Below, piece by piece: positions 44,504 through 44,895 of a DNA stretch of 64,000 bases. The DNA comes from Natronococcus sp. A-GB7 (lineage in GTDB: Archaea > Halobacteriota > Halobacteria > Halobacteriales > Natrialbaceae), in NCBI RefSeq assembly GCF_029688865.1, contig NZ_JARUKV010000011.1, forward strand, positions 1 to 64,000, read 5' to 3'. The notes beneath the pieces are model-generated. The model did no database searches, had not been told where the DNA came from, and saw only the letters and a program-made list of their open reading frames with translations. Every line of letters starts with the position of its first letter. The stretch's first letter is position 1. The translations under genes were made by a program, and so were the position numbers.

Positions 44504-44532
44504 TGCGAGGGAGGAGGATTCGAATCCTTCAG
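44504..44532 (-). repeat. tRNA 3'-end-like remnant
   Basis: The + strand tgcgagggaggaggattcga resembles the complement of an acceptor and T arm with the GGATTCGAATCC core. No D arm or anticodon arm follows, so it is not a tRNA. It matches the style of an old attachment-site copy. Confidence 0.45.
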
Positions 44533-44569
44533 TTCGATCGCTGCCGCTCGAGCGTCGTTGGAATCGGTG

Positions 44570-44656
44570 TGCGAGGGAAGGGATTTGAACCACGCCCGAG
44601 AGCCTGCTCGCTCCGCTCGCAGAACCTCGGTCTGATTCAAATCCCCTCGTCTCGCA
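44570..44656. repeat. Palindromic element with tRNA-Leu 3'-end arms
   Basis: The left arm (44570-44591, ending gatttgaacc) is identical over 22 bases to the 3' end of the tRNA-Leu gene at 44686. The right arm (44634-44656, gattcaaatcccctcg...) is an inverted, diverged copy. The 42-base core holds a smaller inverted repeat (ctgctcgctccgctcgcag). The whole 87-bp unit can fold into one hairpin and looks like a small non-autonomous or attachment-derived element beside its tRNA. Confidence 0.6.
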
Positions 44657-44685
44657 GCTACCGCTCACGGATGTTCGCGGTAGCA

Positions 44686-44769
44686 TGCGAGGGAAGGGAT
44701 TTGAACCCTCGGACCCCTACGGGAGCGGGTCTTAAGCCCACCGCCGTTGGCCTGCTTGGCTACCCTCGC
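44686..44769 (-). tRNA. tRNA-Leu (anticodon TAA)
   Basis: On the - strand an 84-nt cloverleaf starts GCGAGGGTAGCC and ends CCTTCCCTCGCA. The 7-bp acceptor stem (GCGAGGG/CCCTCGC) is perfect, the anticodon loop CTTAAGA gives anticodon TAA, the long variable arm (GCTCCCGTAGGGGTCC) is typical of class II tRNA-Leu, and the T loop is GGTTCAAATCC. Discriminator A fits leucine. No intron, and CCA is not encoded. Confidence 0.93.
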
Positions 44770-44895
44770 ACAGAAGCGCGCTCGAGGGTAGTCGCTGTGC
44801 TGGAATGTGTGTTTCGGTGTTCGCCCGGACCTCCGCGTCGGTCGACCGACGTCCGGAGCGTAGTTATTTGAGGAGCGACCGAATATCGAGGACGT

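Follow-up and report, generated by a model that had tools for sequence, protein, structure and literature searches.

Small palindromic cassettes ending in copies of the host tRNA tail follow many haloarchaeal tRNA genes: a possible family of gene-free mobile elements

Four described systems come closest to the locus treated here. In the tyrT operon of Escherichia coli, 178-bp repeats (rtT/RttR), a long-known oddity, follow a tRNA gene; behind tyrV of E. coli K-12 we find copies of the tRNA 3′ end 178 nt apart (3 of 22 mismatches), and each repeat also holds an inverted 10-nt piece of the tRNA tail (GGGGAAGGAT), so that the order tail, inverted tail, tail occurs there too. Archaeal integrases prefer tRNA 3′ ends, and integrative elements of archaeal tyrosine recombinases such as SNJ2 are flanked by direct repeats of the tRNA 3′ end, leave the tRNA restored and show empty and occupied sites (PMC8371274). 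Integron cassette arrays have folded palindromic attC sites, fixed cassette orientation and growth next to a fixed anchor (PMC9668308); attC ends follow RYYYAAC / GTTRRRY. The haloarchaeon Haloquadratum walsbyi carries gene-free mobile repeats (SMR, PATE and MITE elements), of which the SMRs, about 80–110 bp, have their own inverted terminal repeats, make no target duplication and insert into transposons (PMC3119063).

We analyzed a window of 64,000 nucleotides from Natronococcus sp. A-GB7 (GCF_029688865.1, contig NZ_JARUKV010000011.1, positions 1 to 64,000). A preliminary description had noted that 22 bases of a tRNA-Leu 3′ end recur beside the gene, with an inverted diverged copy, a further remnant and a long imperfect hairpin with its own inner palindrome. 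That observation is confirmed. ARAGORN finds a single tRNA gene in the window, the 22-nt string at 44686–44707 recurs exactly at 44570–44591, and the inverted, diverged copy lies at 44634–44657. A second palindrome, X, directly on the tRNA end, had been missed. We call the repeated tRNA end S, its inverted copy S′, and the two palindromes X and Y, and read the features as follows.

44685–44770, minus strand: tRNA-Leu(UAA) gene, host of the array (ARAGORN; RF00005 match at 44686–44769).
44686–44705, minus strand: S, the tRNA's own 3′ end from T54 to the discriminator, TTCAAATCCCTTCCCTCGCA in tRNA sense, the repeated or attachment sequence.
44657–44684, minus strand: X, a hairpin module between S and S′ with a perfect 8-bp stem and loop GAACATCCGTGA (GA..GA motif).
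44636–44656, no strand assigned: S′, an inverted, partly decayed copy of S, TGCGAGACGAGGGGATTTGAA in tRNA sense.
44590–44635, minus strand: Y, a 46-nt palindromic core module of type 1 (TCAGACCGAGGTTCTGC..GCAGGCTCTCGGGCGTGG) with loop GAGCGGAGCGA, the inner palindrome of the preliminary description.
44570–44589, minus strand: S copy 1, exact (the exact repeat extends to 44591).
44525–44569, minus strand: remains of a second, older, distal unit.
44504–44524, minus strand: S copy 2, decayed, TTCGAATCCTCCTCCCTCGCA in tRNA sense.

The locus is one case of a family tied to tRNA genes, and neither chance repeats nor a single-locus curiosity. BLAST of the 88-bp piece against the own genome gave 10 matches at E<1e-6, the window's own included, and all 10 lie just downstream of tRNA genes; the tenth is at an intron-bearing tRNA-Trp. 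We then took a census by one rule (last 20 nt from the T-loop TTC on, at most 4 mismatches, within 600 nt downstream). Own-tail copies were found behind 24 of 45 tRNA genes of the own genome, 16 of 43 of genome G183 and 22 of 42 of genome G043, the three representing three haloarchaeal families. Tails of other isotypes matched in 27 of 1886, 23 of 1720 and 56 of 1640 trials (1–3%), and the opposite strand gave 1, 6 and 2 genes, G183 thus having more inverted tails than the others. tRNAs without TTC[AG][AT] at the expected place were skipped, one false tRNA-Arg with a 374-nt intron was dropped, and a doubtful tRNA-Ser prediction remains in the G183 count. Over five genomes, with at most 5 mismatches, 117 of 219 tRNA genes have at least one copy and 37 have two or more. 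Some Ala, Gly and Arg tRNA genes (Gly and Ala loci of genome G067, and two loci of the own genome, L029 and L035) are followed by palindromes ending in only the last dozen or so bases of the tRNA tail, below the census threshold.

The hairpin pattern GATTTGAAN{25,55}TTCAAATC occurs in 174 of 194 genomes of the class and the backwards control in none; a stricter TGG form occurs in 25 of 35 class genomes and in 1 of 161 other genomes of the phylum, the latter an A+T-rich match. These patterns need exact T-loop letters and undercount: G067 has no pattern match, yet 10 of 30 of its tRNA genes have copies (30 of 40 listed tRNA loci were used). A scan of one genome for each of 84,980 species in GTDB returned at least 119 stretches, of which 80 were used. 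Of 74 haloarchaeal hits, 68 lie within 500 nt downstream of a tRNA in tRNA sense; five of the other six lie near fragment edges with no tRNA in the fragment, and the sixth is the Haloterrigena salina locus described below. Fourteen of the 80 loci were called non-haloarchaeal by hand, and 2 of their 14 hits also lie next to a tRNA.

The units are cassettes of roughly 90–150 bp (some longer), hold no gene and are built as S-X-S′-Y-S. The left edge of the direct repeat is sharp at G53/T54: across 85 first units, copies match their own tRNA upstream of it hardly better than they match other tRNAs. The GA-RC..GY-GA motif of X is found in 87 of 101 unit segments. S′ follows the host tRNA, positions 9–10 pairing in 135 of 168 cells (maximum of 2000 permutations 106) and positions 11–13 in 99 of 252 (maximum 97), while tracking by the acceptor half is modest (own 3.72, others 3.17, permutation maximum 3.43). 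Y comes in a few recurring types shared between tRNAs, genera and families; the type-1 core occurs behind Ser, Val, Gly and Trp tRNAs. In 269 units from 199 of 346 loci examined, Y is never reversed relative to the tRNA (65, 17, 18, 12 and 26 forward in five partly overlapping types, 0 reversed). Triloops of the kind d(GCGNAGC), which form unusually stable DNA hairpins, occur 99 times in 101 segments, against a mean of 8.9 in mononucleotide shuffles. Two loci of the own genome depart from this plan: behind tRNA-Pro(GGG) (L057) a type-3 core sits between arms GTGGGACCA and TGGTCCCAC, taken from the acceptor strand of the tRNA and not from the T-loop, so that there seems to be a second arm class, and tRNA-Leu(CAA) (L051) is followed by a tandem array of a short GCGGTTCGGAGCGAGC-like unit.

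Arrays are polar, with older copies distal. The copy next to the tRNA is the better match in 23 cases, the distal one in 5, with 9 ties (sign test p=0.0005), although in multi-unit arrays the mean mismatch rises only slowly with position (1.46, 1.57, 2.31, 3.00) and 5 of 37 arrays run the other way. X and Y are replaced separately. Between congeners G004 and G002, X and S′ are identical at Leu(UAG) and Ser(UGA) while Y is of another type, and at Glu(UUC) Y is 98% identical between G000 and G004 while X differs. The argument rests on individual pairs in both directions; mean identity between congeners is about equal for X+S′ (0.72) and Y (0.69; 45 pairs). At tRNA-Leu(UAA) itself X and S′ are conserved in G002, G004 and G005, while Y is of type 1 in G002, as in the window, and of two other types in G005 and G004; a fourth congener, G007, is truncated. 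In G005 the flank after the single S copy matches the flank after S copy 2 of the window, so the remnant is the end of an older unit.

Clean empty and occupied alleles are seen at tRNA-Leu(CAG), tRNA-Tyr and tRNA-Thr(UGU). The tRNA-Leu(CAG) site, next to a conserved gene, was read in 30 genomes: 6 have a unit with a perfect second S, 1 a decayed one and 23 none, all 5 rows outside the family labelled f1 being empty. By our reading CACTTCT follows the tRNA or the second S in 24 of 30. A tree of the linked 1.3 kb needs 5 gains or losses, at least 3 of them forced by well-supported branches; 11 of 27 inner branches are well supported, and 45 of 500 shuffles need as few changes. G000 and G005 are empty inside an otherwise occupied clade, so precise loss or repeated gain has happened.

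Compared with these systems one by one, the units share with tyrosine-recombinase elements the flanking repeats of the tRNA 3′ end, the whole tRNA and the occupied and empty alleles at orthologous sites, but are about 100 bp, contain an inverted copy of the attachment sequence, form polar arrays of several units and carry no integrase gene. All 10 integrase-domain (PF00589) matches of the own genome lie on other contigs or more than 10 kb from its 44 listed tRNA genes. Fixed orientation and polar growth are as in integron arrays, but the units end GTTCAAATC, with GATTTGAA on the S′ side; the end reads GTTCAAA and not GTTRRRY, there are no coding cassettes, no integrase lies at the arrays of the own genome, and the anchor is a tRNA gene. 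Like the tyrT repeats they are tandem repeats holding the tRNA 3′ end; those, however, belong to one locus, whereas the haloarchaeal units occur behind about half of the tRNA genes with swappable X and Y, and a covariance-model scan of 15 array loci against Rfam up to E=10 listed no rtT. In the same scan no Rfam family matches the units; it did place the L4-Archaeoglobi ribosomal-protein leader, above its gathering score (72.8 bits against 34.5), at 2307–2406 of locus L034, beside the tRNA-Gly pair of the own genome. In contrast to SMRs, the outer repeats are the target tRNA end, about 20 bp, duplicated. Searches of the open-access literature, which leaves out most subscription journals, found no description of these units (PMC3119063, PMC8371274, PMC9668308 and PMC9897764 among the papers considered).

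Our preferred reading, to which we give a probability of about 0.5, is that cassettes are inserted at the T-loop/3′-end attachment site used by tRNA-targeting elements, next to the tRNA and pushing older units away, by a recombinase supplied in trans, and are lost by recombination between S copies. The analysis itself establishes the family, its position directly at tRNA 3′ ends in tRNA sense, the bounding direct repeats of about 20–23 bp that keep the tRNA whole, the tracking of the host tRNA by S and S′ while X and Y types recur across tRNAs and genera, the polarity, the separate replacement and fixed orientation of modules, and the precise presence and absence at orthologous sites; the insertion, the excision, the enzyme and its activity are inferred. 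That S is a genuine attachment sequence is supported by locus L310 of H. salina, where about 3 kb of degenerate element with an ORC/CDC6-like AAA ATPase gene lies between tRNA-Val(CAC) and a unit, bounded by S and by a two-mismatch copy of S; two of its reading frames look by eye like an integrase remnant, although Pfam found nothing in them. The sense strand folds more stably than the antisense in 227 of 269 idealized hairpins, which with the fixed orientation of Y suggests that one folded single strand is the substrate, as for attC sites. An equivalent route, in which a staggered cut at both edges of S duplicates it (Cas1/casposase-like), would also explain why both S copies belong to the host.

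Several findings weigh against this reading. No enzyme or active cassette was found, and precise loss can also come from ordinary recombination or slippage between 20-bp repeats; tandem Gly(GCC) units are exact 144-bp duplicates, as unequal crossing-over would give. A whole cassette moving between different tRNAs would bring the wrong S, so that exchange inside the T-loop or in-situ making of S and S′ is needed. We also considered exchange of Y as double-stranded DNA between inverted S sites, but Y should then sometimes be flipped, and it never is. No cassette was seen on a virus: the type-1 core gave no match, and none of 120 pattern stretches (of at least 120 that matched) or 20 short-pattern stretches was recognized as a unit.

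Of the rivals, replicative template switching survives best, though we think it doubtful. In this view the strand ending in the T-loop snaps back twice at stable mini-hairpins at a stalled fork, turning S into S-X-S′-Y-S in place; X and Y are turn points renewed by later switches, tandem copies come from unequal crossing-over, and no mobile element exists. It is favored by S and S′ both being copies of the local tRNA end, which a travelling element would not bring, by stems that are nearly all Watson–Crick (hpA 486 of 495, core 454 of 481), by the abundant triloops and by the exact tandem duplicates. However, the same X and Y types recur behind different tRNAs and in different families, so they are not random turn points; X is alike in four genera at tRNA-Leu(CAG) while outgroups are clean; and nothing in this view explains the restriction to one class or to tRNA 3′ ends with a fixed left edge.

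Somewhat less likely still is a functional RNA, with cassettes transcribed as pre-tRNA trailers whose hairpins act in termination, 3′ processing or as decoys for tRNA-binding enzymes and are kept by selection. Fixed orientation in tRNA sense, the more stable sense strand, the class-wide presence and an excess of G-T over A-C at the first two Y positions (139 to 9) would fit. The inner Y stems show the reverse of an RNA signal (G-T 6, A-C 27; in an earlier set 1 and 10, with hpA 4 and 3), whereas tRNA acceptor stems by the same count give 17 to 0. The earlier set had at first been taken to prove DNA-level hairpins, a reading that the larger set does not sustain, since its pairing signals conflict. 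About half of the tRNA genes lack a unit, which ones differing between species, and alleles differ by precise presence or absence between congeners. Scars of proviruses or plasmids deleted down to their ends are very unlikely, although real elements do integrate at the same S, given the uniform anatomy, the recurring X and Y types, the lack of viral or integrase sequence in the units, and searches with no match in a phage collection and one in a plasmid collection, beside tRNA-Gly genes of a megaplasmid.

The preliminary interpretation was partly supported. Of its two alternatives, a tiny palindromic element living on tRNA ends is close to what the data show, with many units, all at tRNA genes, and occupied and empty alleles, although spread by mimicking tRNA ends is not shown; nested scars of larger elements are not supported. 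It had proposed that a palindrome found only here, with no integrase at orthologous loci, would refute it: the first is clearly not the case, while the second holds for this locus in the four congeners seen, but in H. salina a degenerate element sits between tRNA-Val(CAC) and a unit, with S as its attachment repeat.

The cassettes are a real, class-wide and apparently undescribed family. Since the mechanism is inferred, we place them with gene-free mobile repeats and tRNA-tail repeats; movement through a single strand would make them a new kind. In that more tentative view they would be a new class of mobile element, gene-free nested-palindrome cassettes that use the host's tRNA gene as a fixed docking site, insert through a folded single strand next to it and copy the docking sequence in both orientations, an archaeal counterpart of integron cassette arrays with every tRNA gene as a possible platform and independently exchangeable hairpin modules.

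If our reading is true, a third to a half of the tRNA genes in haloarchaea carry an unannotated, fast-changing array, including in genera that are easy to grow, such as Haloferax and Haloarcula, both among the hits of the species-wide scan. This would give a simple, testable system for how gene-free DNA moves, how tRNA attachment sites evolve and why tRNA 3′ ends are integration hot spots. Annotation pipelines should expect partial tRNA copies there. Units also supply extra copies of the attachment sequence, so they should influence where viruses and plasmids integrate, and the likeness to the E. coli tyrT repeats suggests a common principle in both domains.
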